Shown here one piece after another: positions 1-64,000 of a DNA stretch of 64,000 nucleotides (position 1 is the first letter of the stretch; each line of letters begins with the position of its first letter). Where the stretch lies: positions 5,243,595 through 5,307,594 of the forward strand of contig NZ_KB217478.1 of NCBI RefSeq assembly GCF_000331305.1. Reading direction: 5' to 3'. The translations under genes and the position numbers were made by a program. The stretch is from Calothrix sp. PCC 7103. Its GTDB lineage: Bacteria; Cyanobacteriota; Cyanobacteriia; Cyanobacteriales; Nostocaceae. The notes beneath the pieces were generated by a model. It saw nothing but the letters and a program-made list of their open reading frames with translations. It had not been told where the DNA came from and searched no databases.

Positions 1-93
1 CTTTCTTTGGTACTTTCTATTGACCAACAAACTGCCTGAACGGTAGAGTCGGTAAGCTTCTGTAACACTCATCCCGCGAGGTGTAATACTCAT
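1..93 (-). CDS. DUF262 (GmrSD-like) protein, N-terminal fragment
   Basis: Only the first 31 codons are inside the window; the gene continues off the left edge. The N-terminus contains SVTEAYRLYRSGSLLVNRKYQRK, the helix plus 'NRxYQRK' signature at the start of DUF262/GmrSD N-terminal domains, which are ParB/Srx-like nucleotide-hydrolysing modules in type IV restriction proteins. An ATG at the right end and an upstream AT-rich gap support the start. The link to DNA restriction is family knowledge only; the catalytic part cannot be seen. It heads a group of defence-like and toxin-antitoxin genes. Confidence 0.6.
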   Translation of the reverse strand, partial: MSITPRGMSVTEAYRLYRSGSLLVNRKYQRK

Positions 94-321
94 ACTTAAT
101 TAAAATACGATTTGTCAACCTCAATTATACTAAATTAATCAGTAATATTTAACACTCTATATAATTTTGTCTTATAGTATTTATACGCAGTGAGGATGCT
201 AAAATTTTGAGAAAAAGCTCGTTTCAACTACGTTCGTTAACGTAGCATAAAAATGCTTAGTACATCAAAACAGGGAAGTTCAGCTTAAACTAGAGTTACT
301 ACCAATACTAGGTTTATTTGC

Positions 322-543
322 ATGAAGTCGCTGCAAGACTATACAATCGTTATCCATCCTAATGACAATAGTACATTTGTAGCTTACGTCCCTGCCATTC
401 TTGGCTGTCACGCTTGGGGACAAACTCTGGATGAAGCGCACGCTGAAATTACTAACGTTTTCGAGATGATACAAGAAGAATATGCCGAAGAAGGACTCGT
501 AATGCCTGAAGATGTTGAACTGGTGATCGTGAATGCCAGCTAA
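322..543 (+). CDS. Solitary HicB-family antitoxin-like protein
   Basis: This 73-residue protein has the HicB fold pattern: a first strand (YTIVIHPNDNSTFVAYVPAILGCHAWGQT) followed by the helix TLDEAHAEITNVFEMIQEEYAEEG and a final strand. It resembles the short HicB proteins that have no C-terminal DNA-binding domain. HicB neutralises the HicA RNase. No HicA-sized reading frame lies on either side: the upstream 230 bases look empty and a MazF-like gene on the other strand follows 3 bases later. It is therefore an orphan or has a partner elsewhere. The fold assignment is good; antitoxin function is inferred. Confidence 0.75.
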   Translation: MKSLQDYTIVIHPNDNSTFVAYVPAILGCHAWGQTLDEAHAEITNVFEMIQEEYAEEGLVMPEDVELVIVNAS

Positions 544-546
544 ATA

Positions 547-972
547 CTATTTTGGACTTTTACCTCGTTCTAAAGCTTTAGATGTTGAAGGAGGTTCGGG
601 AGACTTTTGTAAAATATTAATAATTGCAGCAATAACTTGATTAAGTTTTTCTTCGTTAACCTTGCCTATAAATCGAATTACGTTACTTTTATCCACTGTG
701 GCAATAATATTAGAGCGGATGTAACAAGGACTTAAATTGAGCTTACCAATATTAAAATCTTGGTCTTCTAACCTTATTTCGTTCTCTCTGCCCGGTTTGC
801 TAGTAATTGGACAGACCAGAATATTATCTTTATCAGATTCTGCAATTATTAAAGCAGGTCGTCTCTTTGTAGTAGGTGCATCCGAAAATGGAAAAGGTAC
901 TGAGACTACATCACCTTTAATTAAATTCTCTATAAATCCTTCCAAGCTTCGTCTTCCTCCGGATTTAGCCAA
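547..972 (-). CDS. MazF/PemK-family toxin (endoribonuclease)
   Basis: The protein has the PemK/MazF core: KGDVVSVPFPFSD near residue 19, RRPALIIAE, ILVCPITS, and the helical end NEEKLNQVIAAIINIL. MazF toxins cut single-stranded RNA. The ATG lies inside the end of the upstream gene (43-base overlap). The conserved domain begins only at about residue 18, so a later non-ATG start close to the upstream stop codon is possible. The C-terminal 20 residues (PEPPSTSKALERGKSPK) are a non-conserved basic tail. It is co-directional with a small antitoxin-like gene, which fits a type II toxin-antitoxin pair. Confidence 0.8.
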   Translation of the reverse strand: MAKSGGRRSLEGFIENLIKGDVVSVPFPFSDAPTTKRRPALIIAESDKDNILVCPITSKPGRENEIRLEDQDFNIGKLNLSPCYIRSNIIATVDKSNVIRFIGKVNEEKLNQVIAAIINILQKSPEPPSTSKALERGKSPK

Positions 973-1208
973 ACCTTGCTTAGTGATGATTCACTCAACT
1001 CCATAAAATCTTTTACTAGGTGAGCGTCATCTAATTCATTTAACTGTAAGTCTTTTACTTGCTCAATAGTTAGTCCAGTTAGTTTTGCTACTAAATTTAT
1101 GTCTATACCCTCGTACAGCATGTTAACGGCTACCTGGTTTAAGCCCTGCTGCAAACCTTGCTCCCATGCTTCGCGTACTGTTTTATCCTGAATTGCAAAT
1201 TCTTGCAT
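930..1208 (-). CDS. Chimeric antitoxin: Rpn-type tail plus MazE-like tail
   Basis: This 92-residue protein reads as two pieces. Residues 1-58 (REAWEQGLQQGLNQVAVNMLYEGIDINLVAKLTGLTIEQVKDLQ) match the C-terminal helix pair common in cyanobacterial Rpn/PD-(D/E)XK transposase-like proteins. The last 24 residues (from MELSESSLSKVW to EEDEAWKDL) look like the acidic toxin-binding tail of cyanobacterial MazF antitoxins. It overlaps the MazF gene. An internal ATG at 1002-1004 could give a minimal antitoxin tail alone. Family assignment of both halves is from pattern memory; the fusion itself is visible as one uninterrupted frame. Confidence 0.55.
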   Translation of the reverse strand: MQEFAIQDKTVREAWEQGLQQGLNQVAVNMLYEGIDINLVAKLTGLTIEQVKDLQLNELDDAHLVKDFMELSESSLSKVWLNPEEDEAWKDL

Positions 1209-1444
1209 GGTTTTTTGAACGTTAAATTCTAATTTAAGTATACCTCACAAATAGTCAGGAAGGAAATTTTGTATTAATGCCACGTCTAGGTATTTACCGC
1301 TCATGTCACTACTTTTGTAAAGGCGCCTGTATTCATGTCAGTATGTGAAGCATAATCAAGCTTAAACCTTGCTTATACGCTTTGATAAACGCAGTTAGTT
1401 ATCTACAATAGCTAAGTAAGGGTGTTTAGTAACGGAAGTAAAAC

Positions 1445-2092
1445 TTGATAATCCTGTGTACTCACAACAGTGGAGGGGTAGGTAAAAGTACCTTGGCTAT
1501 TCATGCTGCTGGTGCTTTAATTGCTTCGTCAGAGAAAACGCTTATGATAGACTGCGATGAGCAATCTGATTCATGGCAATTTTATACTGGTAGAATACCA
1601 ACTCAAGCTCAGGATGCTGATACAGATGGTTACAGGGCAGTTATCTCTAACAAAGAACGTAAGACTATTAAGGCTTTAGCTTTAAAAGGATTCGACCATA
1701 TTGTTTTAGATATTGATACTCCTCTAAAAAATACAGTTCAAGTTATTGTGGGCAACAACCCTGACCTTGTATTAGTGCCTGTAAATAAGTCTCAAGAACT
1801 CAAAGCATTACGTAATCTTCCAAAAACATTAAAAGTTGTTTCTCAACTCGCGAAGCCTGGTTTTTCCCCAAAAGTTATTGTTGTTCCTCTTGGAGTGGCA
1901 CAAGAAAGCATTTTAGAGGTGATTGATAAGATAGATGCAAAGAATAAGCCAAATACCTGTAGAGTTGCTAATGCAATGCCTGATTTACAGGATAAAATGC
2001 AATTAGCTATCTATAAAGATAGAAATTATATTTGGAGTTATGAAGGGTACGAGTATCTGCTTGTATATTTCAACTCGCTAATCAAAACTTAA
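1445..2092 (+). CDS. ParA/MinD-family ATPase with atypical Walker A
   Basis: This is a 215-residue P-loop ATPase. The Walker A region reads HNSGGVGKSTL, with catalytic-type K14; the usual 'signature lysine' of ParA proteins (KGGxGKT) is a serine at residue 9. LMIDCDEQSDSWQFY follows as the switch I-like segment and FDHIVLDIDTPL (D89) as Walker B. The start is TTG at 1445: an in-frame stop lies directly upstream and GGAAG at 1434-1438 gives a properly spaced ribosome site. It is followed 11 bases later by an RHH-like gene and then a nuclease-like gene, all on one strand. Partition or assembly of a DNA-bound complex is inferred, not shown. Confidence 0.8.
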   Translation: MIILCTHNSGGVGKSTLAIHAAGALIASSEKTLMIDCDEQSDSWQFYTGRIPTQAQDADTDGYRAVISNKERKTIKALALKGFDHIVLDIDTPLKNTVQVIVGNNPDLVLVPVNKSQELKALRNLPKTLKVVSQLAKPGFSPKVIVVPLGVAQESILEVIDKIDAKNKPNTCRVANAMPDLQDKMQLAIYKDRNYIWSYEGYEYLLVYFNSLIKT

Positions 2093-2103
2093 AGGAGATA
2101 GGT

Positions 2104-2571
2104 ATGTCTGTAAGTAACTACAACAATCAATCAGAGGATTATATCGTTGAACAAGCTATTGCCGAAGGTTTGCAGCAAGCGGCTGAAGCGGAACCAGTAT
2201 TAGAAGTTACGCTTGAGTTTGACGACGAGCAATTAAAAAAAATTCAGCAACTGACGCTAGCTTTAGAATTATCTGTTACTGATTTATTAGATACAGCTGT
2301 TGGATATGTTTACTTTAATCGAGATGACGAAGAAGTTAAAAAACTGTTGGAGGAATGTGTAAACAAAGCTAAAAACAATTCAGTTGAAGATGAATATAAT
2401 CTAAATTTTGTAACATCTATAGCACGCTTTAAAAAATTGGTATTAACAGCTTTAGTTGCTCACAAACTTCGAGTATTGGGAATGACAGATAACATTTATG
2501 AATGTGTTACCACAGGAATAAATTTGCTTTATGAAAGATTAATTACACACAAAACCAAAGTTGCAAGTTAA
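2104..2571 (+). CDS. Small acidic protein with ribbon-helix-helix-like segment
   Basis: I do not recognise a named family. Residues 33-70 (LEVTLEFD, DEQLKKIQQLTLALEL, SVTDLLDTAVGYVYF) have the strand-helix-turn-helix order of ribbon-helix-helix DNA-binding proteins such as CopG or ParG. A second helical half follows (from FVTSIARFKKL). A strong ribosome site, AAAGGAGAT, precedes the ATG. The position between a ParA-like ATPase and a nuclease-like gene suggests a partner of the ATPase. Overall it is acidic, unlike many RHH repressors, so a protein-protein role is equally possible. Confidence 0.55.
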   Translation: MSVSNYNNQSEDYIVEQAIAEGLQQAAEAEPVLEVTLEFDDEQLKKIQQLTLALELSVTDLLDTAVGYVYFNRDDEEVKKLLEECVNKAKNNSVEDEYNLNFVTSIARFKKLVLTALVAHKLRVLGMTDNIYECVTTGINLLYERLITHKTKVAS

Positions 2572-2581
2572 TGCATTAATA

Positions 2582-3037: not shown

Positions 3038-3144
3038 AATCAAAATTAGCAAGACGATTGATGCGCGGCGCCGACCTGGCTATAGCTATTTCGCTCACAT
3101 CGCAAAAATCAAGATTTATACATTGAAATTTATACGTTGAAAAC

Positions 3145-3660
3145 TTAACCTGCGGCTTCAAGTGATTGTCGAATGTCCTTGAAGAGCAAAAGCAGGTGCA
3201 GGGGATTGCTTGGAGATTCTTCCATGCCGAATTTGAGGTAAAAGGCGCGGGCTTCGTCGTCTTTAGCATGGACAAGAAAAGCGCGACCGCCAATGGTTTC
3301 AGCCCCCGCCAGGGAACGGCGTAGTGCGTTGCGGAACATGGCTTTACCTAAGCCTTTTCCCTGTTCGGCTTTGTCTATGGCAAACCGCGCCATAAGGATA
3401 ACTGGCACGGGATAACGCCCCTGCCCTTTCATGACACGAGCGGGCACATCGTCTGGCGATGCAGATGCAGGGGCAAGGCTGTAATAACCAATGACGCGCT
3501 CGGCGCGGGTCAGGACATACGTTCTGGCTCCTCCGCTTGCCTGATTTTGCAAAGCATATTTGATCAGGAAATCATTAAGTGGCGGTTTGCCACAATCAAA
3601 ATCCGTAATGATATGACTTTTGGCAAGCAGAATAGGCTCATTTAAAGGCTCACTTTGCAT
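3145..3660 (-). CDS. GNAT acetyltransferase toxin (TacT/AtaT type)
   Basis: This 171-residue protein has the acetyl-CoA-binding loop QGKGLG at residues 100-105 and the catalytic-type tyrosine in AFYLKFGME (Y141). FDCGKPPLNDFLIKYALQNQ near the N-terminus is typical of GNAT toxins paired with DUF1778 antitoxins. Such enzymes acetylate charged aminoacyl-tRNA and stop translation (family knowledge). It lies 32 bases downstream of the DUF1778 gene on the same strand. The base composition is clearly more GC-rich than the flanking genes, which suggests acquisition by transfer. Confidence 0.88.
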   Translation of the reverse strand: MQSEPLNEPILLAKSHIITDFDCGKPPLNDFLIKYALQNQASGGARTYVLTRAERVIGYYSLAPASASPDDVPARVMKGQGRYPVPVILMARFAIDKAEQGKGLGKAMFRNALRRSLAGAETIGGRAFLVHAKDDEARAFYLKFGMEESPSNPLHLLLLFKDIRQSLEAAG

Positions 3661-3692
3661 TAAAACAATTCCGGTTCCTTACATTCCTTACA

Positions 3693-3974: not shown

Positions 3975-4210
3975 AATTTTTTCCTATAGCTCTCCTTGTA
4001 TTCCCAATGTACACCCAATTACTCAAAACTGCAATCTATTTGAATAGGATGAACACCGCTAATAATTTAGGATGGTATATTGACTTGGCAATTAAGACTT
4101 TAAACTACAGGATTAAGTAGGCACGGTGCCGAACTACCTTGATAATGTGTTGTATGTAAATGGAATTCACAATTTGCTGTATCCAAAGCTACATCAAAAA
4201 TTCTCTTCTG

Positions 4211-4533: not shown

Positions 4534-4577
4534 AAGCCAATGTGTTTCCAGTTAGCCGATCCGTTTAGTGAGAGGTG

Positions 4578-4955
4578 CTAGGACACTATACCTGAATGCC
4601 CAGCTATAATTTGCCAAGTTCCGTCTCCAGACTGAGACCAAACCCTGGTAAAACGAAAAATGCCATTTGTGGGTGTGCCATTATAGCTGCCCGATAGTTG
4701 CATTTTTACTGAGACTATCGCCACATCACCTGTTAATAAAATATGCTGCTCGGAAGCTAACAACGAGTTGAGTTTAAGGGCGCCTGATTTGTGACCCGCT
4801 AAATCCTCCTCTTTACTTACCACATGTCCCTGGTGGTTTGTAAAAATTAATCGAGATGATAGCAGTTCATCTAGTGCTTTCACATCAGAGTGAAGCATTG
4901 CCAGCCTGAGCTTTTCTTCTGCCTCGATGATTTGATGCTCAATTTGATTATCCAT
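4578..4955 (-). CDS. NTF2-like / DUF4440 protein
   Basis: This 125-residue protein has the cone-shaped NTF2-like pattern: the N-terminal helix EHQIIEAEEKLRLAMLHSDVKALDELLSSRLIF, then FTNHQGHVVSKEEDLAGH and the closing strands FRFTRVWSQSGDGTWQIIAGHSG. These domains bind small hydrophobic ligands or act as small enzymes; the substrate cannot be told here. Its ATG shares one base with the stop codon of clpP (TAATG), so translation is probably coupled to clpP. I know no established functional link between the two. Confidence 0.75.
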   Translation of the reverse strand: MDNQIEHQIIEAEEKLRLAMLHSDVKALDELLSSRLIFTNHQGHVVSKEEDLAGHKSGALKLNSLLASEQHILLTGDVAIVSVKMQLSGSYNGTPTNGIFRFTRVWSQSGDGTWQIIAGHSGIVS

Positions 4956-5566
4956 TATCTTGCCGCTATTAGTTCGGGATGAATCGTCAGAGTCGGGCGC
5001 TCGATGACCCGATCTACCAAGCCATACTCTACTGCCTCTTGTGCCGACATAAAGAAGTCTCGGTCGGTGTCTTGCTCAATTTGCTCTTGGGATTTCCCCG
5101 TATAGTTAGCCATCCGCTCATTGATCTGCCGTTTCAGGTAGATAATTTCCTTGGCTTGAATCTCAATATCCACAGCCTGACCCTGCGCGCCACCAGAAGG
5201 CTGGTGAATCATAATCCGCGAACTTGGTAAACTGCTGCGCTTGCCTTTAGCACCCGCACCGAGTAAAAAGGCGCCCATACTGGCTGCCATGCCATAGCAA
5301 ATCGTGCAAACATCTGGACGAATATGGTTCATCGTGTCATAAATGCCTAAACCTGCTACCACAGAACCACCAGGAGAATTGATGTACAGATAAATATCCT
5401 TTTGGGGGTCTTCTGCTTCTAAAAACAGCATTTGTGCCACAATTCGGTTAGCTGTATCCGAATCAATTGCTTCTGCTAGAAAAATAATCCGTTCTCGCAG
5501 CAAGCGAGAGTAAATATCGAAGGCTCTTTCACCCCGACTCGATTGTTCAATTACGGTAGGAATCAT
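4955..5566 (-). CDS. clpP: ATP-dependent Clp protease proteolytic subunit
   Basis: This is a 203-residue serine peptidase with the complete triad: S96 in [10 protein letters not shown]121 in MIHQPSGG and D170 in [10 protein letters not shown]. It has the family's usual length and an N-terminal [25 protein letters not shown]. ClpP forms a double-heptamer chamber that degrades proteins unfolded by ClpX or ClpC. Cyanobacteria carry several clpP genes plus an inactive clpR; this one keeps all catalytic residues. It is transcribed with an NTF2-like gene that overlaps its stop codon. It is not next to clpX or clpR in this window. Confidence 0.95.
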
Positions 5567-5654
5567 AATGTGAAGTTCTCCAATGAAGTGGACGATTGGG
5601 TAATGGAACTTTTAATCGATTATCAATTGCCCATTACCAGTTTGCGACAGAATT

Positions 5655-6083
5655 TTAAGCCACCAATGCTAATACATCTTCGATTTCTAGCAGACGCTTG
5701 AGGTAGGATACGCTCTTCTTCCATCTGTAGCTCATGGTCATGCTGCTTTGAACATCAAGAGCCGTTTGAATTAGCGTTAGCTTCACTCTAGTCCCCTGCT
5801 GCTCCAGCCTAAAGCAGACGCGAGATGGCACAGTTCCAGTTATATTGGATGAGCTAACGGTATAAGAAAGTAGTTGCGGCGCCTGGGATTCCAATACTTC
5901 ACCAACGTTTTCGGTCTCGCCGTCTTGGTTGACATGCTCCACGGATGAACCCACCTGCCAGTCAGACTGAAGTTGCCCGCCTTCCCAATACTGCTGGGTG
6001 AATTGTTCGCTGACGATCGCTTCCCAAAGTTGTTCGAGCGTGGTCGCAATATAGGTCACGTAAACGAAGGTGGGTTTATTCAT
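5655..6083 (-). CDS. SRPBCC / AHSA1-family protein
   Basis: This 142-residue protein has the START-like opening FVYVTYIATTLEQLWEAIVSEQFTQQYW and the hydrophobic-cavity pattern of AHSA1 proteins. It lies 27 bases downstream of an ArsR-type regulator on the same strand, a pairing often seen in bacteria in which the SRPBCC protein and the repressor form an autoregulated operon. The ligand is unknown. GGCGCC at 5878-5883 lies inside it. Confidence 0.85.
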   Translation of the reverse strand: MNKPTFVYVTYIATTLEQLWEAIVSEQFTQQYWEGGQLQSDWQVGSSVEHVNQDGETENVGEVLESQAPQLLSYTVSSSNITGTVPSRVCFRLEQQGTRVKLTLIQTALDVQSSMTMSYRWKKSVSYLKRLLEIEDVLALVA

Positions 6084-6110
6084 GTTTAGTCTCCTTGGTA
6101 TTTCTAGTTG

Positions 6111-6425
6111 TCAACCTTCGAGATTTCGCTTTAATTGACTCAATGCATCTAGTTGATGCCGTTCATATTTACTCAACCAGCGATCGTAAATCTCCTGAAT
6201 CGGTACTGCGTTAAGGTAATGCAGTTTTTCTCGGCCATGCCAGACGACGACAACCAGATTTGCTGCCTCTAGTAACGTCAGATGTTTTGTCACGGCTTGC
6301 CGCGTCATGTCAAGGTATTCGCACAGTTCGTTTAACGTTTGTCCATTATGGGCGTACAACTGGTCGAGCAACTTTCTCCGACTCGGATCGGCAAGAGCTT
6401 TAAACACTGCATCCATATTTCTCAT
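6111..6425 (-). CDS. ArsR-family winged-helix repressor
   Basis: The protein has about 104 residues. MDAVFKALADPSRRKLLDQLYAHNGQTLNELCEYLDMTRQAVTKHLTLLEAANLV is a textbook ArsR winged helix, with recognition helix TRQAVTKHLTLL. No metal-binding cysteine pair is present, so this is the SRPBCC-partner type rather than a metal sensor. The frame opens at a TTG further out (6434), but the ATG at 6423-6425 gives the usual MRNMDAVF start. A perfect inverted repeat directly upstream (6429-6448) is a likely self-operator. Confidence 0.88.
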   Translation of the reverse strand: MRNMDAVFKALADPSRRKLLDQLYAHNGQTLNELCEYLDMTRQAVTKHLTLLEAANLVVVVWHGREKLHYLNAVPIQEIYDRWLSKYERHQLDALSQLKRNLEG

Positions 6426-6428
6426 TAT

Positions 6429-6448
6429 ATGCAACCTTTTAGTTGCAT
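6429..6448. promoter_or_regulatory. Probable operator of the ArsR-type repressor
   Basis: ATGCAAC-6 bases-GTTGCAT is a perfect 7+7 inverted repeat ending 3 bases before the repressor's ATG. Its size and symmetry suit a winged-helix dimer, and binding there would block the ribosome site or promoter. This is inference from position and symmetry. Confidence 0.5.
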
Positions 6449-6572
6449 GTCAAGCAATTTAATCAAATCAAAAGTACCTGAGTGTTGTCAACCCCGACTG
6501 GCTATGAGTTTCAGACATGAAGAATCGACATTTATGCTATCTTTGTACTAATACTTTAAAAGTGTAGCTTTT

Positions 6573-6911
6573 ATGCAAGCAGATAAATATCCATTTGCCC
6601 AAGAACTGATTACCGATACTCAAGGGAATATTCGTAAGGTAGTAATAGATTTTAACGATTATCAACATTTACTTAAAGCGCTAGAAGTTAGAGGGTTAAC
6701 CCAAACAAGCGTAAAAACCCCACCGAAAAGCCTACTTAGTCAGGAAGAACTTGATAAATTTGACCCAGTGAAGCAACATGAAGCTTTGAGCAAGTTAATG
6801 CAAGAATGGGAAGAAGAAGATGAGGATGAACAAGAACAAACAGAAACTTGGGAATTTCTTCGTAAAGCGTTAGATGAAGATCGTCTTTCTAATAGACCAT
6901 TATTCCCATGA
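6573..6911 (+). CDS. Antitoxin of a VapC-type (PIN) module
   Basis: This 112-residue protein starts with YPFAQELITDTQGNIRKVVIDFNDYQHLLKALE, the short DNA-binding or dimerisation head of cyanobacterial PIN-toxin antitoxins. It ends with a very acidic segment (WEEEDEDEQEQTETWEFLRKALDEDRL) that would bind the toxin. Its stop codon overlaps the toxin's ATG (ATGA), the usual translational coupling. A shortened relative of its 3' half lies at 4211. The partner toxin is frameshifted, so this antitoxin may now be an orphan. Confidence 0.75.
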   Translation: MQADKYPFAQELITDTQGNIRKVVIDFNDYQHLLKALEVRGLTQTSVKTPPKSLLSQEELDKFDPVKQHEALSKLMQEWEEEDEDEQEQTETWEFLRKALDEDRLSNRPLFP

Positions 6912-7361
6912 GTCAAGTTGTATTGCTAGACTCCGGGCCTTTAGGAATGGTGACAAATCCAAAAGCATCTTCCATAGAAGTTCAGGAATGTAAATTGTGG
7001 TTCAATACTTTGCCACAGAGAAATTATACAGTTATGCTCCCTGAAATTACTGACTATGAAGTTAGACGTGAATTATTACGTGTTGGTAAAATAAAAAGTA
7101 TTAGGCGCCGTTTTGCGACTGAAGTTACAAATTCCATACCTTCCACTAACAACGGAAACAATGCTTTTAGCCGCTCAGTTATGGGCAGAAGCAAGACTTA
7201 GAGGAAGACCAACAGCAGAACCTTCGGCATTAGATGGTGATGTAATTTTAGCCGCACAAGCAATATTACTAGAAAATGAAGGGTATAAAGTGGTAATTGC
7301 AACAACTAACGTAGGTCATTTATCACAGTTCATAGATGCTCAGGAATGGCGGGCTATTTAA
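6908..7361 (+). pseudogene. PIN-domain (VapC-type) toxin, frameshifted
   Basis: The first frame gives MSQVVLLDSGPLGMVTNP (catalytic-type Asp in LLDSGPLG) up to VGKIKSIRR. Then the PIN sequence continues in another frame as LKLQIPYLPLTTETMLLAAQLWAEARLRGRPTAEPSALDGDVILAAQA, with the acidic residues of the PIN site (LDGDVILAAQ). The break is at about 7104-7115, at a GGCGCC. A shorter ancestral AGGCGTTTGCGA would restore one frame, which means about 4 extra bases now. The intact enzyme would be an RNase. As written it is inactive unless ribosomes shift frame. Confidence 0.8.
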
Positions 7362-7374
7362 TAAATATCCCTCT

Positions 7375-7402
7375 GTAGAGACGCGATAAATCGCGTCTCT
7401 AC
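7375..7402. repeat. 28-base palindromic repeat, copy 1
   Basis: Starts GTAGAGACGCGAT and ends ATCGCGTCTCTAC, a perfect 13-base inverted repeat around AA. A close relative is at 20184-20211. It sits between two convergent genes and may act as a bidirectional terminator, although no T-run follows it. Confidence 0.7.
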
Positions 7403-7462
7403 GTGTCTCTGTGGTTAAAAATATATATCCTGTTTTATGACTGCACAGGCTAGAAGCCTGTG

Positions 7463-8008
7463 CTACAAGACAATATTTTTTAAAGCTGGGCATTTTTCTA
7501 AAAAGCTGGCGCCTTTATTTGTTGCATCAGGGTTATTTATGTGTGTAGGTGTTGGACGAATTACACCATTGAACAAATCATCTAGCCCATAAGGTGTAAA
7601 AAATTCCCATTCTCCTTGAATATTTACTCGTACTCCTACTGCTGTGGCTGTGTGTAACCAGTTACTAATTCCATCTTCTGTACTAGTAAAAGTCTGGCGC
7701 CCATTACGCCACCTTCCAAAGCTAACTTGGTTTTTGACATCAAATATATAGTTAGGAAATTGGTTGGTTAAAGTTTCTTTGGCGCCAAGTTCCTGCGAAC
7801 GGTCTCCTTGAGCATTAAAAAAAGCAATATCAAAGTCTTTAATAACTAATTTACAATCATTTCCAAATATATGGCACCATACTGTATTACGAACGGCGCC
7901 ACCTGCTAACCACCAGTTAGGAAGTTGAAGTTCTGCGATAGCTGGCAATACTTCACCAACAGGAGAATTTAGAAGTATTTCTTTTAGCTGTACTTGGTTT
8001 GATGTCAT
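7463..8008 (-). CDS. Nucleotidyltransferase-like protein (DUF925 type)
   Basis: This 181-residue protein has a nucleotidyltransferase (pol-beta fold) head: LPNWWLAGGAVRNTVW, the G-G-x-x-R-N/D loop, followed by VIKDFDIAFFN with the D-x-D metal pair. Similar small proteins are annotated as nucleotidyltransferase family; the substrate is unknown. Its ATG overlaps the stop codon of the TauE gene (ATGA), so it is the third gene of a coupled operon. Its 3' end has a decayed relative at 4481. It contains five GGCGCC sites in under 550 bases, the densest cluster seen here. Confidence 0.75.
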   Translation of the reverse strand: MTSNQVQLKEILLNSPVGEVLPAIAELQLPNWWLAGGAVRNTVWCHIFGNDCKLVIKDFDIAFFNAQGDRSQELGAKETLTNQFPNYIFDVKNQVSFGRWRNGRQTFTSTEDGISNWLHTATAVGVRVNIQGEWEFFTPYGLDDLFNGVIRPTPTHINNPDATNKGASFLEKCPALKNIVL

Positions 8009-8751
8009 TTTGCTGGAAATAAAAAGAAGTAGCTAGTTATGGAAACTCCAATACACGTAATAAAATTACGTACCCACGTTGAACTGACCTTACGGGCGAA
8101 GAAAGCACTGCTATATCCACCAATTAAAGCACCAACTGCCATGAAAATCGCACTTGACCAGACAATGATGCCTGCTTTCATAAAGTAAAGCAAAGCGCAA
8201 GCGTTTAAAGTTGTTGCTAACCAGCTTTTTACAGCATTCATTGTGTGAATACTTTTAATACCCATAATTTCTAAAATAGCTAGTATAACAATACCACCAC
8301 CGCCACCAAAAAAACCTCCATATATAGCAATCAGGAATTGAAAGATAATTACTAACCACATTGGTAATTTAAAAAGATTTTGTAACCAGCTATTAATTCG
8401 CTTACCAAATGCGAATAATAATGTGGCAGTTAGCATCAAATATGGAATTAAACCAGCAAAGCTTTTAGAAGGAGTATTTAACAGTATATATGAACCAATA
8501 ATTCCTCCTAAAACGCTTGCTACAGTCAGTGTGAAAAATTCCCATCGACGAATTGACATATCTTGACGGTAAGCAAATGTAGAAGCGGCAGTTCCTACCC
8601 ACATTGCTGCTGTATTAGTTGCGTTTGCTGGTATTGGTGGAACTCCCACAAACATTAATGCTGGAAATGCAATTAACCCTCCTCCACCTGCAACACCATT
8701 CATGGCGCCTGCTATTACAGCTACGATAAATAAGAATAAATTAGATAGCAT
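8005..8751 (-). CDS. TauE/SafE-family permease
   Basis: This 248-residue membrane protein has about eight hydrophobic segments and the family's two signature loops: GAMNGVAGGGGLIAFPAL near the N-terminus and YGGFFGGGGGIVILAIL in the middle. TauE/SafE proteins export sulfite, organosulfonates or other small anions. It is coupled at both ends to its neighbours (TAATG with the methyltransferase upstream, ATGA with the nucleotidyltransferase downstream). A LysR gene diverges from the operon and is the likely regulator. The substrate cannot be read from the sequence. Confidence 0.9.
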   Translation of the reverse strand: MLSNLFLFIVAVIAGAMNGVAGGGGLIAFPALMFVGVPPIPANATNTAAMWVGTAASTFAYRQDMSIRRWEFFTLTVASVLGGIIGSYILLNTPSKSFAGLIPYLMLTATLLFAFGKRINSWLQNLFKLPMWLVIIFQFLIAIYGGFFGGGGGIVILAILEIMGIKSIHTMNAVKSWLATTLNACALLYFMKAGIIVWSSAIFMAVGALIGGYSSAFFARKVSSTWVRNFITCIGVSITSYFFLFPAK

Positions 8752-9491
8752 TAACTTTCCCTCATAGCAGTAATTCGTAGGCGCCTATAATCAGCCGTCC
8801 AAATTCCGTTTTTATATAAGATAGGTTTGAGTTGTTCTTCTACTGTTTTGATTACTTCTTGCTGTGTGGAGTTAGCAAAAAATCTACTTGCGAACATCAT
8901 CAACCAATTTCGTAAACCTGCTTCTCCATCGGGTAACGGTGTTGGACGGTCGAATAGTACTGCATAGCTAACATCAAAACCGTGTTTTTCTAATAGAGTT
9001 GTATATTCTCCAATGCTAGGAAAGTACCAAGGTGATGATGATTTGTTTTCTAAAGCTTGGGAGAGTGCATCGGTAATCAATTTAACGTTACCTTTTCCAC
9101 CAAATTCTGCAATAAAGCGACCTCCAGGCTTTAATGCGCGGTAAATAGAACTAATTACTCTTTCTGCTTCTGGTATCCAATGCAACGTCGCATTTGAAAA
9201 TACAGCATCAAATTCTGTATCAAATTGAAGTAAACGCGCGTCTGCAACTGCAAATTCTAAATTCGGATAATTTAGCTTTGCTTTTTCCACCATTGCAGCC
9301 GATGCGTCTATTCCTGTTACGATGGCGCCTGTATCAGCTATTTTCGCAGCAAGTTGTCCTGTGCCACAACCAACATCTAAAATTTTCTCTCCTAATTGCG
9401 GGGACAGTAAGTTCAGTAAATCTTCACCATATTGCCAGACGAACGCATGTTTACCCTCGTAAAGGGTTGCGTTCCAAGTATTTTGAACCAT
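8751..9491 (-). CDS. Class I SAM-dependent methyltransferase
   Basis: This 246-residue enzyme has motif I ILDVGCGTGQLAAKIAD at about residue 38, the acidic end of strand 2 in VTGIDAS, and FDAVFSNATLHWIPEAERVISSIYRALKPGGRF (motif II/III). The HWI segment and the length resemble trans-aconitate 2-methyltransferase-like enzymes, but the substrate is uncertain. It is first in a three-gene, overlapping operon with a TauE permease and a nucleotidyltransferase, transcribed away from a LysR gene. Confidence 0.88.
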   Translation of the reverse strand: MVQNTWNATLYEGKHAFVWQYGEDLLNLLSPQLGEKILDVGCGTGQLAAKIADTGAIVTGIDASAAMVEKAKLNYPNLEFAVADARLLQFDTEFDAVFSNATLHWIPEAERVISSIYRALKPGGRFIAEFGGKGNVKLITDALSQALENKSSSPWYFPSIGEYTTLLEKHGFDVSYAVLFDRPTPLPDGEAGLRNWLMMFASRFFANSTQQEVIKTVEEQLKPILYKNGIWTADYRRLRITAMRES

Positions 9492-22263: not shown

Positions 22264-24522
22264 ATGACAATTAGTCCTCCAGAGCGAGAGGAGAAGAAAG
22301 CAAGAGTAATCGTCGATAAAGACCCAGTACCAACTTCGTTTGAACGATGGGGACAGCCCGGTCACTTCGATAGAACTCTCGCTAAAGGTCCAAAAACCAC
22401 TACCTGGATTTGGAACCTTCATGCACTCGCCCATGACTTTGATACACATACAAGCGATTTAGAAGACATTTCCCGTAAAGTTTTCGCAGCACACTTCGGT
22501 CACTTGGCTGTTGTGACACTGTGGTTAAGCGGGATGATATTCCACGGCGCCAAGTTCTCGAACTACGAAGCTTGGTTAATGGATCCTCTCAACGTAAAGC
22601 CCAGCGCTCAAGTTGTTTGGCCAATTGTTGGACAAGACATATTAAACGGTGATGTAGGCGGCGGTTTCCACGGCATCCAAATCACCAGTGGTTTGTTCCA
22701 AGTTTGGCGTGGTTGGGGTATCACCAATACCTTCCAGTTGTATTGCACTGCAATAGGTGGTCTAGTATTAGCTGGCTTGTTCTTATTTGCAGGCTGGTTC
22801 CACTACCACAAGCGGGCACCGAAATTGGAATGGTTCCAAAACGTTGAGTCTATGCTCAACCACCACTTAGCAGTGTTGTTAGGTTGCGGTTCGTTGGGTT
22901 GGACAGGTCATATAATTCACGTATCAGCTCCAATTAACAAGTTGTTGGATGCAGGGGTAGCATTGAAAGATGTGCCTTTACCTCACGAGTTCATCCTCAA
23001 CAAAGATTTGTTAATTGAGTTGTTCCCCAGCTTTGCAAATGGCTTAACTCCTTTTTGGACGTTAAACTGGGGTCAGTACGCTGATTTCTTGACTTTTAAA
23101 GGCGGTTTGAACCCCGTAACTGGCGGTCTTTGGATGACTGACATCGCACACCATCATTTAGCGATTGCAGTTCTCTTCATCGTTGCTGGTCACCAATACC
23201 GTACCAACTGGGGTATCGGTCACAGTATTAAAGAGATTCTTGAGAACCACAAAGGACCTTTCACAGGTGAAGGTCACAGGGGTCTTTACGAAAACTTGAC
23301 CACCTCTTGGCACGCTCAGTTAGGTATTAACCTTGCTATGTTGGGTTCGCTGACGATTATCGTCGCGCACCACATGTACGCAATGCCTCCGTACCCTTAC
23401 TTGGCAACAGATTACGCTACCCAACTGTGTATCTTCACTCACCACATGTGGATTGGCGCCTTCTTAATTGTCGGTGGTGCGGCGCACTCAGCCATCTTCA
23501 TGGTGCGGGATTATGACCCTGTTGTTAACCAAAACAACGTTCTGGATCGAGTAATTCGTCATCGCGATGCAATTATCTCTCACCTCAATTGGGTATGTAT
23601 GTTCCTAGGCTTCCATAGCTTTGGTTTATACATCCATAACGACACAATGCGCGCGTTGGGTCGTCCTCAAGATATGTTCTCCGACACTGCAATCCAGTTA
23701 CAACCAGTGTTTGCTCAGTGGGTCCAAAACCTACACACAGTGGCGCCTGGTGCAACAGCTCCAAATGCATTGCAAGTTGTCAGTCATGCCTTCGGTGGCG
23801 GTATCGTCGCAGTTGGTGGCAAAGTGGCAATGATGCCAATTGCTTTGGGTACGGCGGATTTCATGATTCACCATATCCACGCATTCCAAATTCACGTAAC
23901 CGTACTGATTCTGCTTAAAGGTGTATTATTCGCCCGCAGTTCACGCTTAATCCCAGATAAAGCGAACCTAGGCTTCCGCTTCCCTTGCGATGGTCCTGGT
24001 CGTGGCGGTACATGTCAAGTGTCTGGTTGGGACCATGTGTTCCTCGGACTCTTCTGGATGTATAACACTATCTCAATTGCAATTTTCCACTTTAGTTGGA
24101 AGATGCAGTCTGATGTGTGGGGAACTGTTGACTCAGATGGTGTGGTTTCACACATCACTGGTGGAAACTTTGCTCAAAGTGCCATTACTATCAACGGTTG
24201 GTTGCGTGACTTCTTATGGGCACAAGCCGCACAAGTTATCAACTCCTACGGTAGCGCTCTGTCTGCTTACGGTTTGATGTTCTTAGGTGCCCACTTCGTT
24301 TGGGCATTCAGCTTAATGTTCCTGTTCAGTGGTCGCGGCTACTGGCAAGAATTGATTGAATCGATTGTTTGGGCACATAATAAATTGAAGGTAGCACCTT
24401 CAATTCAGCCACGTGCTTTAAGCATCATTCAAGGTCGTGCAGTAGGTGTGGCACACTATCTACTAGGAGGTATTGCCACAACGTGGGCATTCTTCCACGC
24501 GCACATCCTTTCAGTAGGCTAA
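22264..24522 (+). CDS. psaA: Photosystem I P700 apoprotein A1
   Basis: This is a 752-residue PSI core subunit of standard length, starting [15 protein letters not shown]. The FX iron-sulfur loop [12 protein letters not shown] supplies C575 and C584. Many conserved histidines ligate chlorophyll ([38 protein letters not shown]). PsaA pairs with PsaB to bind P700, A0, A1 and FX in the thylakoid membrane. It appears to be the ordinary visible-light form. psaB follows, separated by a repeat-filled 172 bases. GGCGCC occurs in it three times, despite strong protein constraint. Confidence 0.99.
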
Positions 24523-24694: not shown

Positions 24695-26920
24695 ATGGCA
24701 ACAAAATTTCCAAAATTTAGCCAGGATCTCGCACAAGATCCGACTACTCGTCGGCTCTGGTATGCGATGGCTACAGGGAATGATTTTGAAAGCCATGACG
24801 GGATGACGGAGGAAAATCTTTATCAAAGGATTTTCGCTACTCACTTCGGTCATGTAGCAATCATTTTCTTGTGGGCATCCAGCCTCAATTTCCATGTAGC
24901 TTGGCAAGGTAACTTTGAACAGTGGATTAAAGACCCTCTCCACATTCGCCCTATCGCTCACGCGATTTGGGACCCTCACTTCGGCAAACCAGCTATCGAA
25001 GCATTCACCCAAGGTGGCGCATCGAATCCAGTAAACATTACCTACTCTGGTATTTACCACTGGTGGTACACCATCGGGATACGTACTAACAACGACCTCT
25101 ACATGGGCGCCGTGTTTTTACTCCTGTTGGCAGCAGTGTTCTTGTTTGCAGGTTGGTTACATTTGCAACCCAAGTTCCGTCCTAGTCTTTCTTGGTTCAA
25201 GAGTGCAGAACCCCGTTTAAACCACCACTTAGCAGGTTTGTTCGGTGTAAGCTCCTTAGCTTGGACTGGTCACTTGGTACACGTTGCTATTCCTGAATCT
25301 CGTGGACAACACGTAGGCTGGGATAACTTCCTAAGTACATTGCCTCACCCCGAAGGTTTAACACCCTTCTTTACAGGAAACTGGGCTGCATACGCACAGA
25401 ATCCAGATACTGCGAATCACTTGTTTGGTACCTCAACAGGCGCCGGTACAGCAATTTTGACCTTCTTGGGCGGTTTCCACCCTCAAACAGAATCGCTGTG
25501 GTTGACCGACATGGCACACCACCACTTGGCAATTGCAGTTATCTTTATTGTTGCTGGTCATATGTACCGTACCAACTTTGGTATTGGTCACAGCATTAAA
25601 GAAATGCTCAACGCCAAAAACTTCTTTGGCACCAAGACCGAAGGTCAATTCAACCTGCCTCACCAAGGGCTGTATGACACTTATAACAATTCCCTACACT
25701 TCCAATTGTCTATACACTTGGCTGCGTTAGGAACTGTATTGTCATTAGTTGCACAACATATGTACGCTCTGCCTCCTTACGCTTTCATAGCTAAGGACTA
25801 CACTACACAGGCAGCACTGTACACACACCACCAGTACATAGCCGTTTTCTTAATGCTTGGTGCTTTTGCCCACGCAGCAATCTTCTGGGTACGTGACTAC
25901 GACCCCGAACAAAACAAAGGCAACGTACTCGACCGCGTGCTGAAGCACAAAGAAGCGATTATCTCGCACTTAAGCTGGGTATCCCTTTTCTTGGGTTTCC
26001 ACACCCTCAGCTTGTATGTACACAACGACGTAGTTGTTGCGTTTGGTACTCCTGAGAAACAAATCTTGATTGAGCCAGTATTTGCTCAATTCATTCAAGC
26101 ATCTCACGGTAAAGTTCTGTATGGAATGCAAACATTGCTCTCTAACCCAGACAGTGTTGCTTATACCGCTTACCCAAACTACGCTAACGTCTGGTTGCCT
26201 GGTTGGTTAGATGCAATCAACAACGGTACAAACTCTCTATTCTTAACCATCGGTCCCGGCGACTTTTTAGTACACCACGCCTTCGCGTTAGCTATCCACA
26301 CCACCGTATTGATTCTTGTCAAAGGTGCTTTGGATGCTCGTGGTTCTAAATTAATGCCAGACAAAAAAGACTTTGGTTATGCATTCCCTTGTGACGGTCC
26401 TGGTCGTGGCGGTACTTGCGACATTTCCGGTTGGGACTCGTTCTACCTAGCTACATTCTGGGCATTAAACACTGTCGGTTGGGTAACCTTCTACTGGCAC
26501 TGGAAGCATCTGGGTATTTGGCAAGGTAACGTAGCACAATTTAACGAAAACTCGACCTACTTAATGGGCTGGTTCCGCGATTACCTCTGGGCGAACTCCG
26601 CACAGTTAATCAACGGTTACAACCCATACGGTATGAACAACCTGTCAGTTTGGGCTTGGATGTTCCTCTTCGGACACCTTGTTTGGGCGACTGGCTTCAT
26701 GTTCCTCATCTCTTGGCGTGGTTACTGGCAAGAGTTGATAGAAACCTTGGTTTGGGCACACGAGCGCACTCCTCTTGCGAACCTAGTTCGTTGGAAAGAC
26801 AAGCCCGTTGCACTCTCCATCGTTCAAGGTCGCTTAGTCGGTTTAGCTCACTTCACAGTTGGCTATATCTTTACTTACGCAGCCTTCCTCATAGCTTCTA
26901 CGGCTAGTAAATTTGGATAA
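24695..26920 (+). CDS. psaB: Photosystem I P700 apoprotein A2
   Basis: This 741-residue protein starts [20 protein letters not shown]. The FX loop [12 protein letters not shown] gives C566 and C575, which complete the intersubunit 4Fe-4S cluster with PsaA. Chlorophyll-ligating histidine clusters match the family ([45 protein letters not shown]). It is likely co-transcribed with psaA and followed by a good terminator at 26951. Confidence 0.99.
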
Positions 26921-29958: not shown

Positions 29959-31041
29959 ATGATAACACTCTTCGATTCCATCAAAGTCGGCGCCTTAACG
30001 CTACCAAACCGTATGGTAATGGCGCCACTGACACGAGGACGGGCAGAAAGCGATGGTACACCCACTGAGATAATGGTGGAATATTATCGGCAACGTGCAA
30101 CAGCAGGATTAATAATTAGTGAAGCAACTTCAATATCACCGTTTGGTATAGGTTGGGTAAACGCTCCCACAATCTTTAAACCCGACGATATTACAAACTG
30201 GCAAGCTGTAACTGATGCAGTCCATCAAGCAGATGGTCGTATATTCTTACAACTTTGGCACATGGGCAGAGTATCACACCCTGACTTTCTCAACGGACAA
30301 CAACCAGTTGGGCCCTCAGCTATTGCAGCTAAAGGTGATGCCCATACACCACTAGGTAAAAAACCTTACGTTACACCACGCGAACTAACAGTAGAAGAAA
30401 TTCACGCAACTGTTGCAGACTACGCCACAGCTACTCAAAACGCGCGTGAAGCTGGATTTGATGGTGTAGAAATACACGGCGCCAATGGTTATTTAATTGA
30501 TGAATTTTTACGAGATAGTGCAAATAAACGTAACGATGAATATGGTGGCGCCATACAAAACCGTGCGCGCTTCATGTTAGAAGTTGTCGAAGCCGTAGTT
30601 TCTGCTTGGAGTGCCGACTGTGTAGGCATTAGACTATCACCAGCAAATCCCTACAATGATATGAGTGATAGCGACCCTATTGGATTATTTACTTATGCTG
30701 CTGAACAATTAAATAAATTTGAACTTGCCTATTTACACGTTCTCGAAGGACTTCCTGGTAGTGTGTTAGCAGGCCCAGAACCGCGCGTTACACCTCATAT
30801 TCGCCGAACGTACAATGGAATACTAGTGGTAAATGGTGGATATAACCAAGAGTTAGGCGCCAAAGCTTTAGAAAATAACGAAGCGGATTTAATCGCTTAC
30901 GGTACTCTATTCCTTGCTAATCCTGATTTAGTCGAACGTTTCCGCAAAGGTACATCGCTTAATACTCCAGATTCTCATACGTTTTACACTCCTGGAGAGA
31001 AAGGTTATACTGATTACCCAGCTTTAACCGCTGTTGGCTAA
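29959..31041 (+). CDS. Old yellow enzyme family alkene reductase
   Basis: This 360-residue FMN oxidoreductase opens LFDSIKVGALTLPNRMVMAPLTRGRA. The substrate-binding residues appear as DGVEIHGANGYLIDEFLRDSANKRNDEYGG. It has LQLWHMGRVSHP and, near the end, GAKALENNEADLIAYGTLFLANPDL. OYEs reduce activated C=C bonds with NAD(P)H. The length is normal and the gene stands alone. Five GGCGCC sites lie in it. Confidence 0.95.
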   Translation: MITLFDSIKVGALTLPNRMVMAPLTRGRAESDGTPTEIMVEYYRQRATAGLIISEATSISPFGIGWVNAPTIFKPDDITNWQAVTDAVHQADGRIFLQLWHMGRVSHPDFLNGQQPVGPSAIAAKGDAHTPLGKKPYVTPRELTVEEIHATVADYATATQNAREAGFDGVEIHGANGYLIDEFLRDSANKRNDEYGGAIQNRARFMLEVVEAVVSAWSADCVGIRLSPANPYNDMSDSDPIGLFTYAAEQLNKFELAYLHVLEGLPGSVLAGPEPRVTPHIRRTYNGILVVNGGYNQELGAKALENNEADLIAYGTLFLANPDLVERFRKGTSLNTPDSHTFYTPGEKGYTDYPALTAVG

Positions 31042-61549: not shown

Positions 61550-61617
61550 AGTGCTGAGTGCTGAGTTCTGAGTGCTGAGTTTTTATCTTTTAACTTCTAC
61601 TCAGCACTTAGCACTCC
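61549..61617. repeat. GTGCTGAGT-type hairpin repeat
   Basis: GTGCTGAGTGCTGAGTTCTGAGT (61551 on) pairs with ACTCAGCACTTAGCACTC (about 61598-61615). It follows the antiporter's stop codon directly. From 61618 to 61920 no gene is seen; the stretch should contain the promoter of the next operon. Confidence 0.7.
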
Positions 61618-61920
61618 ATTGTCAACCACATTCTGGCATTTATTTATCGTTACTTCAGCATATAGTAGAAGTTAAGTTTTTTTGAAGATTGTGTGAATCT
61701 TTAATTTTCCTTTATTTATACCAAGCTATATTTGTTATTTTGCAAGTGGCATTTACAACCAGTGGATAGACACGTCTAAATCTCACTTGGCAGCAAATAT
61801 TGGCTCTTGTAAGCGAAAAAATACTGACAAAATTTTGTTAGTGATGAATTTTTGGGTTGGTGCTGGGTACCCTAAATACAAGCGCATCTTGAAGTGAATA
61901 TCTCTAAACATAGGAAAAGT

Positions 61921-62859
61921 ATGAGAATTTTGGTGACGGGCGGAGCAGGGTTTCTTGGTTCCCATCTTATCGATAGACTTATGACCGCTGGGCATGAAGT
62001 CATTTGTTTGGATAATTTTTACACGGGCAACAAGCGTAATATCCTGCAATGGTTAGATAATCATAACTTTGAACTCATTCGCCACGACATCACAGAACCA
62101 ATTCGGTTGGAGGTAGACCAAATTTACCACTTGGCTTGCCCTGCCTCTCCTGTACATTACCAGTACAATCCCGTGAAAACCGTGAAAACGAATGTCATGG
62201 GTACTTTAAATATGTTGGGACTAGCGAAGCGCGTTAAAGCAAGATTTTTCTTAGCTTCGACTAGCGAAGTTTACGGAGACCCTGATGTACATCCACAAAG
62301 CGAAGAGTACAGAGGTAATGTTAACCCTATCGGTTTACGCGCGTGCTATGACGAAGGTAAGCGTATTGCTGAAACATTAGCATTCGATTATTACCGTCAG
62401 AATAAAGTTGATATACGAGTCGTTCGTATTTTTAACACATACGGCCCACGTATGTTAGAAAACGATGGTCGTGTTGTTAGTAACTTTATTGTTCAGGCAT
62501 TACAGGGTAAACCTTTAACCGTATACGGTGATGGTTCTCAAACTCGTAGTTTTTGTTACGCTTCAGATTTGATTGAAGGGTTTATTCGCTTAATGAACAG
62601 TGACTATGTTGGTCCTGTAAACATTGGTAATCCCGGAGAATATACGATTTTGCAGTTAGCAGAAGCGGTAAGAGACATGATTAATCCAAATGCAGAGATA
62701 ATCCACGAACCTTTACCTTCTGATGACCCACGTCGGCGCCGTCCTGACATTACTAAAGCTAAAACATTGCTTGATTGGGAACCTACTGTGCCTCTTGCGG
62801 AAGGATTGAAACTAACAGTGGAAGATTTCCGTAAACGCATGGGCAATGCGCCTATTTAA
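61921..62859 (+). CDS. UDP-glucuronate decarboxylase (UDP-xylose synthase type)
   Basis: The protein has about 312 residues. [41 protein letters not shown] is the NAD-binding head. The catalytic Tyr and Lys lie in [10 protein letters not shown] (Y-x-x-x-K). [35 protein letters not shown] and [25 protein letters not shown] are UXS-like. It turns UDP-glucuronate into UDP-xylose. The next gene makes UDP-glucuronate, so the two form one pathway. The ATG at 61921 is preferred over an upstream GTG. Confidence 0.92.
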
Positions 62860-62924
62860 GGTAAAGACAGTTTTAAATATTACCTCACTTTCATTGTACA
62901 AAATTAGATAGGAATTGAACGAAA

Positions 62925-64000
62925 ATGCGTGTTTGTGTAATTGGTACTGGTTATGTTGGCTTGGTTACAGGTGCTTGTTTAGCACATATTGGTCATGATG
63001 TTGTGTGCATCGACAATAACGAAGAAAAAGTCAAAATTATGAAAGCCGGTCAGTCTCCGATATTTGAACCGGGGCTTTCTGAAATCATGCAAGGTGCAAT
63101 TCAATCAGGAAGAATTGAGTTTAGCACCGACATTGCAGCAGGTGTTGCACACGGTGAAATTTTATTCATTGCAGTTGGTACACCTCCACTACCTAATGGT
63201 GAAAGTGATACCCGTTATGTAGAAGCCGTTGCCCGCAGCATTGGCGCCAATTTAAATGGTGGTTACAAAGTAATCGTTAATAAATCAACGGTACCCATTG
63301 GTTCAGGTGACTGGGTGCGAATGATTGTTCTGGATGGTCTTGCAGAACGTCAAAAACAATTAGTTACAGCAGGTAGCGGTCCTGCAGAAAGGTTGCCCGA
63401 AGTTGCAGACTTCGATGTTGTTAGCAACCCAGAATTCTTGCGCGAAGGTTCCGCTGTTTATGACACCTTCAACCCCGACCGAATTGTACTCGGTGGTAAC
63501 AGCCAAAAAGCAATCGGCTTAATGAAGCAACTTTATGCTCCTATTGTCGAGCGTCAGTTCGCTGAAAATAAAACTGCTGCCCCTGTTGCTGTACTCGCAA
63601 CAGACCTCAGTTCGGCAGAAATGATTAAATATGCCGCTAACGCCTTCTTAGCTACCAAAATTAGCTTTATTAACGAAGTTGCTAATATTTGCGACCGCGT
63701 AGGCGCCGATGTTACTCAAGTTGCGAAAGGTATTGGTTTAGATTCACGTATTGGTAGCAAGTTCCTCAATGCTGGTATTGGTTGGGGTGGTTCATGTTTC
63801 CCCAAAGATGTTAGTGCGCTTATTCACACTGCTGATGACTACGGTTACGAAGCTCAACTCCTCAAAGCTGCTGTCAGCGTTAACGAACGTCAGCGTTTAA
63901 TTGCATTAGAAAAGCTTCAACAAGCTCTGAAAATTCTTAAAGGTAAAACTGTAGGATTACTCGGCTTAACATTTAAGCCTGATACAGATGACTTACGTGA
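62925..64000 (+). CDS. UDP-glucose 6-dehydrogenase, partial (3' end off window)
   Basis: The frame opens at ATG 62925 (MRVCVIGTGYVGLVTGACLAHIGHDVVCIDNNEEKV) and remains open to the end, 358 codons. SNPEFLREGSAVYDTFNPDRIV, TDLSSAEMIKYAANAFLATKISFINEVA and the catalytic cysteine in GWGGSCFPKDVSAL are all present. It oxidises UDP-glucose to UDP-glucuronate for envelope polysaccharide. It lies 65 bases after the decarboxylase. GGCGCC occurs twice. Confidence 0.97.
   Translation, partial: MRVCVIGTGYVGLVTGACLAHIGHDVVCIDNNEEKVKIMKAGQSPIFEPGLSEIMQGAIQSGRIEFSTDIAAGVAHGEILFIAVGTPPLPNGESDTRYVEAVARSIGANLNGGYKVIVNKSTVPIGSGDWVRMIVLDGLAERQKQLVTAGSGPAERLPEVADFDVVSNPEFLREGSAVYDTFNPDRIVLGGNSQKAIGLMKQLYAPIVERQFAENKTAAPVAVLATDLSSAEMIKYAANAFLATKISFINEVANICDRVGADVTQVAKGIGLDSRIGSKFLNAGIGWGGSCFPKDVSALIHTADDYGYEAQLLKAAVSVNERQRLIALEKLQQALKILKGKTVGLLGLTFKPDTDDLR

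Follow-up and report, generated by a model that had tools for sequence, protein, structure and literature searches.

A stretch of 64,000 nucleotides from Calothrix sp. PCC 7103 (assembly GCF_000331305.1, contig NZ_KB217478.1, positions 5,243,595 to 5,307,594; hereafter the window) is densely occupied by the palindrome GGCGCC, and lacks the highly iterated palindrome HIP1 (GCGATCGC) that abounds in other genera of the same family. This exchange of one palindrome for another is already known, having been published in 2015 (Elhai, PMC4390886) in a paper that assigns GGCGCC to Calothrix PCC 7103 and Calothrix D253 as an alternate HIP. What we add is that the swap occurs together with a conserved orphan methyltransferase in all seven genus genomes compared, that the constraint on the sites is limited to the hexamer, a spectrum of site losses, and a further case in a genome of the Synechocystis genus, here called G071.

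GGCGCC density in the window and the whole genome

A preliminary description of this DNA had counted 103 copies of GGCGCC, about one per 620 bases, with three to four expected. Our recount also gave 103 copies (one per 621 bases), and base composition predicts 4.0. The expectation rises to 5.5 when trinucleotides are considered, and dinucleotide-preserving shuffles of the window contained 6.6 ± 2.3 copies, with none of 100 shuffles reaching 103. The copies are spread about randomly, with 9-18 per 8 kb and a coefficient of variation of 0.91 for the gaps. They include three in psaA and two in psaB, both of which had been said to contain the word. The features referred to here are as follows.

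1..64000, no strand: the alternate HIP GGCGCC, dispersed in 103 copies, about 1 per 621 bases; HIP1 (GCGATCGC) absent
22264..24522, plus strand: psaA (TIGR01335, 1625.8 bits), with GGCGCC at 22546, 23455 and 23742
24695..26920, plus strand: psaB (TIGR01336, 1568 bits), with GGCGCC at 25106 and 25439
7463..9491, minus strand: dense example of three consecutive open reading frames (ORFs), with GGCGCC at 7508, 7696, 7781, 7895, 8704, 8780 and 9324
30310..30315, no strand: sole GGGCCC of the window (control palindrome)

A codon-aware comparison of palindromes, which the preliminary description had proposed, gives the same picture. When synonymous codons are shuffled inside each ORF, 7.45 copies of GGCGCC are expected in the 44 ORFs of the window, as opposed to the 86 found. 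When the analysis is widened to the 224-kb stretch in which the window lies, its 152 ORFs contain 308 copies versus 24.1 ± 4.1 expected, by far the largest excess among the 64 palindromic hexamers, and a further 54 copies lie in the 55.8 kb outside these ORFs. The whole genome (11,584,393 bases) has 17,704 copies, or 1,528 per Mb and one per 654 bp, whereas the reversed word, used as a control, occurs 8 times. GGCGCC thus has the density by which an alternate HIP is recognized, roughly 500-2500 per Mb and well in excess of what composition and codon use predict. The bases flanking GGCGCC do vary, as had been claimed, but not with complete freedom: across 880 kb sampled from the genus, the hexamer is preceded by G and followed by C somewhat less often than expected.

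Other palindromes of the window argue that the excess is not general to GC-only words, since GGGCCC (the single copy at 30310 that had been noted before) and GCCGGC occur once each, and CGGCCG, CCGCGG and CCCGGG not at all. Equal enrichment of all GC-only palindromes, the pattern that would have spoken against a special status of GGCGCC, is therefore not seen, yet GCGCGC (19 copies) and CGCGCG (20 copies) also exceed their composition expectation of 4.0 each. HIP1 is absent from the window, CGATCG is present twice and GATC 20 times, where about 230 would be expected. By a simple measure on a 328-kb sample, GATC stands at 9% of expectation (108 versus 1,158), and CAGGCGCC occurs at 189 per Mb in the same sample.

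As a separate observation, CGCGCG, along with GCGCGC, is a second over-represented palindrome; CGCGCG occurs 62 times versus 18.6 expected by codon shuffling in the 224-kb stretch, and its synonymous sites are conserved too (odds ratio 3.26). Besides GATC, the palindromes CTGCAG, TTCGAA, CCATGG, GTGCAC and others are avoided in this stretch, which suggests several past or present restriction systems.

The swap is shared by a genus

Seven genomes of the genus were compared: the genome analysed (G000), two Calothrix metagenome assemblies (G001 and G005), Calothrix PCC 7716 (G002), Calothrix NIES-4105 (G003), Dulcicalothrix desertica PCC 7102 (G004) and Calothrix HK-06 (G006). All seven have 7,475-20,380 copies of GGCGCC and only 31-163 of HIP1 (31-147 in the six other than G000, which has 163 in 11.58 Mb, or 14.1 per Mb). 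The six genomes searched from other genera of the family all show the opposite pattern, with 3-127 copies of GGCGCC and 4,807-7,721 of HIP1. HIP1 is thus low where relatives have it, and the iterated word is not HIP1 itself. These genome-wide counts uphold the earlier proposal, made from the window, that GGCGCC took HIP1's place. As the swap is found in every genome sampled from the genus, it is a trait of the clade and not a sporadic one; exceptional HIPs were previously described as arising sporadically and not by clade (Elhai 2015, PMC4390886).

Among 291 genomes sampled from the order, G000 being the sole member of its genus, GGCGCC exceeds 1,000 per Mb in only three: G000 (1,528), G071 (~2,500) and G128 (~1,075). 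The next-highest values are ~530 per Mb in G181 and ~400 in G020. G128, G181 and G020 were rejected as further swaps, because HIP1 is the strongly enriched palindrome in the 20-40 kb sampled of each; in G128, which has 65% GC in a 20-kb sample, it is the strongest octamer.

Constraint is confined to the hexamer

The preliminary description had proposed comparing the sites with neighbouring synonymous positions in close relatives. Stretches of the six relatives were placed on 224 kb of the G000 sequence (39-145 kb per genome), and third codon positions inside GGCGCC, where the same amino acid was kept, were compared with the same codons outside the motif. From G000 to G003, 299 of 339 such positions are conserved versus 187.9 expected (Cochran-Mantel-Haenszel odds ratio 5.9, chi-square 122), and in the reverse direction 302 of 332. 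The odds ratio is above 1 in all 11 ordered genome pairs run (2.3-9.6). By this measure, the sites have been maintained in evolution.

The extra conservation is found at all six positions of GGCGCC, while the flanks 1-3 bases outside it are at background (240/328 = 0.732, versus 0.757 expected). GGCGCC also ranks first of 1,219 hexamer classes, with a z of 11.0 (spread 1.24), followed by three hexamers that overlap it and then by CGCGCG (z 4.0). Together, these three results indicate that the constraint belongs to the hexamer. Regional repair near the sites was considered and rejected, given that flanking synonymous positions are at background.

Spectrum of site losses

Terminal branches of the genus carry 52 single-base losses of GGCGCC, of which 31 are a C>T change at the inner C (or its complement). 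On the G003 branch there are five losses, four of them of this type, and no gains; the stem of the five close genomes yielded no column that satisfied the rule for a change in either direction. C>T is more frequent at the inner C (21/187) than at other GCG (39/724; Fisher p 0.007) or at the motif's other Cs (14/365; Fisher p 0.001). Such an excess is as expected if the inner C is 5-methylated, and fits the chemistry of M.BsaHI, which methylates the central C of GRCGYC (PMC2413257).

A candidate orphan methyltransferase

The preliminary description had suggested an orphan cytosine methyltransferase specific for GGCGCC. We compared the C5 methyltransferases of the seven genus genomes among the matches listed, and within these, two groups are present in all seven. 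The first is represented in G000 by an enzyme of 313 amino acids (aa), encoded at C7:8004469-8005407, whose orthologs in the six other genomes are 82-99% identical to it. It adjoins a 390-394-aa gene; a scan of this gene in G000 alone showed it to be RuBisCO-like. The contig of G006 ends within the methyltransferase copy beside this gene, and that genome has a second, complete copy at another place. The 313-aa enzyme matches TIGR00675 (166.8 bits), and an NCBIfam search assigned it no specificity. Its PDB matches, over about half its length, are M.HaeIII as the best, then an unnamed cytosine methyltransferase and M.HhaI.

Relatives of this enzyme in other genomes commonly come with an endonuclease. 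Beside relatives of 54-72% identity, all six upstream genes that were chosen by size for a Pfam scan encode RE_HindVP (PF09519), and by tblastn RE_HindVP adjoins relatives at 34 of 47 non-genus loci (partial genes counted and G071 not; some loci may share a genome). The 34 endonuclease-linked loci together have only 3 copies of GGCGCC, as expected where the site is restricted, although family mates chosen irrespective of the enzyme have few copies too (1 in 49 kb), so that the shortage alone proves no specificity. PF09519 was found in none of the seven genus genomes by a search that was positive in five of five known carriers. The 313-aa enzyme is thus an orphan as regards this endonuclease family, and a matching PF09519 endonuclease elsewhere in the genome was considered and rejected.

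A recognition loop of the form xRR-x10-T[IV]-x3-NRP, located by the spacing rule of Neely and Roberts (PMC2413257), is common to all 34 endonuclease-linked copies and all seven genus orthologs, which places the 313-aa enzyme in the BsaHI/HgiDI/HindV family of C5 methyltransferases. Its family and loop motif predict that the enzyme recognizes GRCGYC, a degenerate site that covers GGCGCC and three other words. The earlier suggestion therefore stands insofar as a methyltransferase exists without this endonuclease in all seven genus genomes, though specificity for GGCGCC alone is not what its family and motif predict. A literature search for papers on Dulcicalothrix methyltransferases found none.

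In a search of order genomes, G000 has two GRCGYC-type enzymes. The other C5 methyltransferase group common to all seven genomes (370-398 aa) has one member in each of the seven genus genomes, for example at L039:3986-5095 (minus strand). The genus genomes also have extra paralogs of the 313-aa enzyme, ~60% identical, at L035, L050, L061, L064, L074 and L083, some of which have changed recognition loops (QRK, RGT) and possibly other specificities. Just upstream of the RuBisCO-like gene, at L033:3836-7127 (plus strand), a 658-aa C5 methyltransferase is followed by a 435-aa gene without a Pfam or NCBIfam match, possibly another restriction-modification pair.

A 434-467-aa C5 methyltransferase is common to eight HIP1-rich genomes (G007, G009, G010, G011, G012, G014, G016 and G020), based on the best-scoring one or two enzymes per genome, and none of the genus enzymes retrieved matches it at more than 35% identity. 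It may be the CGATCG methyltransferase. The lack of a close match in the genus agrees with the broken CGATCG methyltransferase reported in PCC 7103 (Elhai 2015, PMC4390886).

A second case in the Synechocystis genus

G071 is comparatively rich in GC (53.6% in 182 kb). GGCGCC occurs there 411 times, versus 67 expected from composition and 153 from trinucleotides, and CRGCGCYG is a better description of the enriched word, with 9,131 copies in G071 versus 152-199 in four genus mates. HIP1 occurs 74 times in G071 versus 3,110-3,424 in three of these mates; in the fourth, G019, HIP1 occurs 134 times and the 60 kb sampled show no word strongly enriched in its place. G071 shares its genus with G048, a 3-kb piece of which matches a Synechocystis PCC 7338 plasmid at 100% identity.

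G071 encodes a 341-aa methyltransferase that is 53% identical to the 313-aa orphan enzyme (L167:7875-8900, minus strand; the G071 loci are L167-L177). No relatives of the orphan enzyme at an E-value of 1e-70 were found in the four genus mates, and PF09519 is absent from G071 and from the three of its four mates covered by the search (all but G300). Since CRGCGCYG is not a form of GRCGYC, the specificity of the 341-aa enzyme may differ, and another of the three C5 methyltransferase matches of G071 may be responsible for CRGCGCYG. No mention of the CRGCGCYG case was found in the literature searched.

Interpretation and competing explanations

We lean, if not strongly, towards the explanation that an orphaned GRCGYC-type methyltransferase had its sites become an iterated palindrome, which is kept by purifying selection and has a methylation-dependent task. 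On this view, HIP1 gave way to GGCGCC in the ancestor shared by a single Nostocaceae genus, which comprises Dulcicalothrix and genomes labelled Calothrix. The solitary 5-methylcytosine (m5C) methyltransferase is most likely what is left of a GRCGYC restriction-modification system (BsaHI/HgiDI/HindV type) after loss of the endonuclease, and the HIP1-internal methylating enzyme of other cyanobacteria appears to be missing in the genus. The orphan enzyme would methylate the inner cytosine of GGCGCC, and purifying selection acting on each of the six bases, which we infer in preference to biased repair, would preserve the hexamers once they had spread. A methylated site every ~600 bases presumably serves a genome-wide task that depends on methylation, the likeliest being strand-tagging for mismatch repair, as Elhai proposed.

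Several observations weigh against this explanation. On terminal branches there is 1 gain versus the 52 losses, so the set of sites may be slowly eroding instead of balanced, even though the sites otherwise appear maintained. The counting rule favours losses, with 34 polarised near-miss words versus 165 motifs; an initial count restricted to the window, later extended, had found no gains and 23 losses at the tips, 15 of which hit the inner C. Relatives of the methyltransferase, at an E-value of 1e-70, are present in 66 of the 291 order genomes and only two of the 66 are rich in GGCGCC, which means that the methyltransferase alone is insufficient. Similarly, all seven order genomes whose relative lacks an endonuclease in the fetched 3.6-3.9-kb locus have only 67-872 copies. 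Among the GRCGYC forms, only GGCGCC is enriched (GACGTC 4, GACGCC 17 and GGCGTC 12 in 880 kb); because these three are rare although the family reads GRCGYC, methylation alone does not explain the choice of GGCGCC. The 370-398-aa group is a possible alternative as the relevant enzyme, and nothing links GGCGCC sites to mismatch repair.

A serious rival, though one we consider rather unlikely, is a mutational ratchet without function (Elhai 2015, PMC4390886), in which a postulated mismatch repair directed by G-methyl-C favours mutations creating GG(m5C)GCC until there is about one per kilobase. It fits the link to a methyltransferase and the density of one per 654 bp, accounts for why GGCGCC was chosen among the GRCGYC forms, and in a saturated state would yield few present gains, like the single tip gain seen; it also needs methylation of the inner C, for which the excess of C>T speaks. 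It sits less well with a constraint that spans all six positions and ends at the motif edge, with synonymous change that, varying by genome pair, is ~2- to 6-fold slower inside the motif than in identical codons elsewhere (from logs of conserved fractions), and with a trait found in all sampled genus genomes instead of sporadically. To our knowledge, with no search made for it, no nicking protein specific for G-methyl-C is known, which also counts against the ratchet.

The remaining possibilities are less probable. A role of GGCGCC as a signal for recombination (chi-like) or DNA uptake, kept for exchange between relatives and with methylation secondary, would fit the density, genus-wide sharing and hexamer-limited conservation, yet we think it improbable, because a perfect palindrome permits no orientation and an endonuclease-less methyltransferase in two lineages would be a coincidence. 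Very-short-patch repair of the Vsr type, for which Dcm/Vsr is a precedent, could over-correct T:G to C:G and so accumulate a methylated site, and the inner C is indeed the mutable position. However, conservation extends beyond the inner C to all six positions, C>T at the inner C is elevated and not reduced, and Vsr (PF03852) was found in none of 21 genomes while 5 of 14 control genomes were positive. This idea is largely refuted and very improbable. An artefact of composition, codon usage or amino acids can virtually be dismissed: frame 0 (Gly-Ala) is the commonest, with 162 of 308 copies, but the codon-shuffle null of 24.1 refutes it, and the 54 copies outside ORFs and the absence of CCGCGG and CCCGGG from the window are contrary to it as well.

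More tentatively, it is possible that orphaned methyltransferases of the GRCGYC family took over the genome palindrome at least twice independently, in the Nostocaceae genus and, with CRGCGCYG, in the Synechocystis lineage, each time with loss of HIP1 and then purifying selection confined to the palindrome. If so, a dense lattice of methylated GC-rich palindromes would matter, and not the sequence of HIP1 itself. The purpose of HIP1 has long been open, and a lineage in which the word was exchanged and the density kept separates sequence from purpose. HIP1 selection and periodicity were reportedly treated in a 2018 study by Xu, Lawrence and Durand. The sporadic nature of alternate HIPs has been taken as an argument that HIP1 itself is selected (Elhai 2015, PMC4390886); the retention of GGCGCC in all seven genus genomes and the constraint limited to six bases speak against this argument. 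Since Synechocystis includes a standard laboratory model, a member of this genus with its own alternate HIP would ease experiments.

Comparison with known systems

The system is most similar to the alternate HIP described by Elhai (2015, PMC4390886), which has the same hexamer, near-absent HIP1 (14 per Mb in PCC 7103, versus 14.1 here), a shortage of GATC (16% of expectation), CAGGCGCC at 159 per Mb, and two GrCGyC methyltransferases. That case rested on one genome and 19 kb, whereas here all seven genomes were covered, the methyltransferase gene was placed, the absence of the endonuclease was tested, and site conservation and losses were measured. According to that article, the methylation site was known for no GrCGyC enzyme, but the 2008 BsaHI paper (PMC2413257) gives one. 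The same article describes other alternate HIPs, rCCGGy in Oscillatoria PCC 10802 and GCsGC in Cyanothece PCC 7822, which likewise combine low HIP1, another raised GC palindrome and a matching methyltransferase, with different sequences and enzymes.

Like HIP1 with its GATC and CGATCG methyltransferases, GGCGCC is a dispersed GC-rich palindrome, about one per kb, in coding and non-coding DNA, with solitary methyltransferases; unlike HIP1, it has another sequence without a GATC core, and another methyltransferase. With the BsaHI, HgiDI, HgiGI and HindVP systems (GRCGYC) it shares the methyltransferase family, the recognition-loop motif and the expected methylation of the central C. In contrast to these restriction-modification systems, no RE_HindVP gene was found in any of the seven genus genomes, and GGCGCC is enriched instead of avoided.

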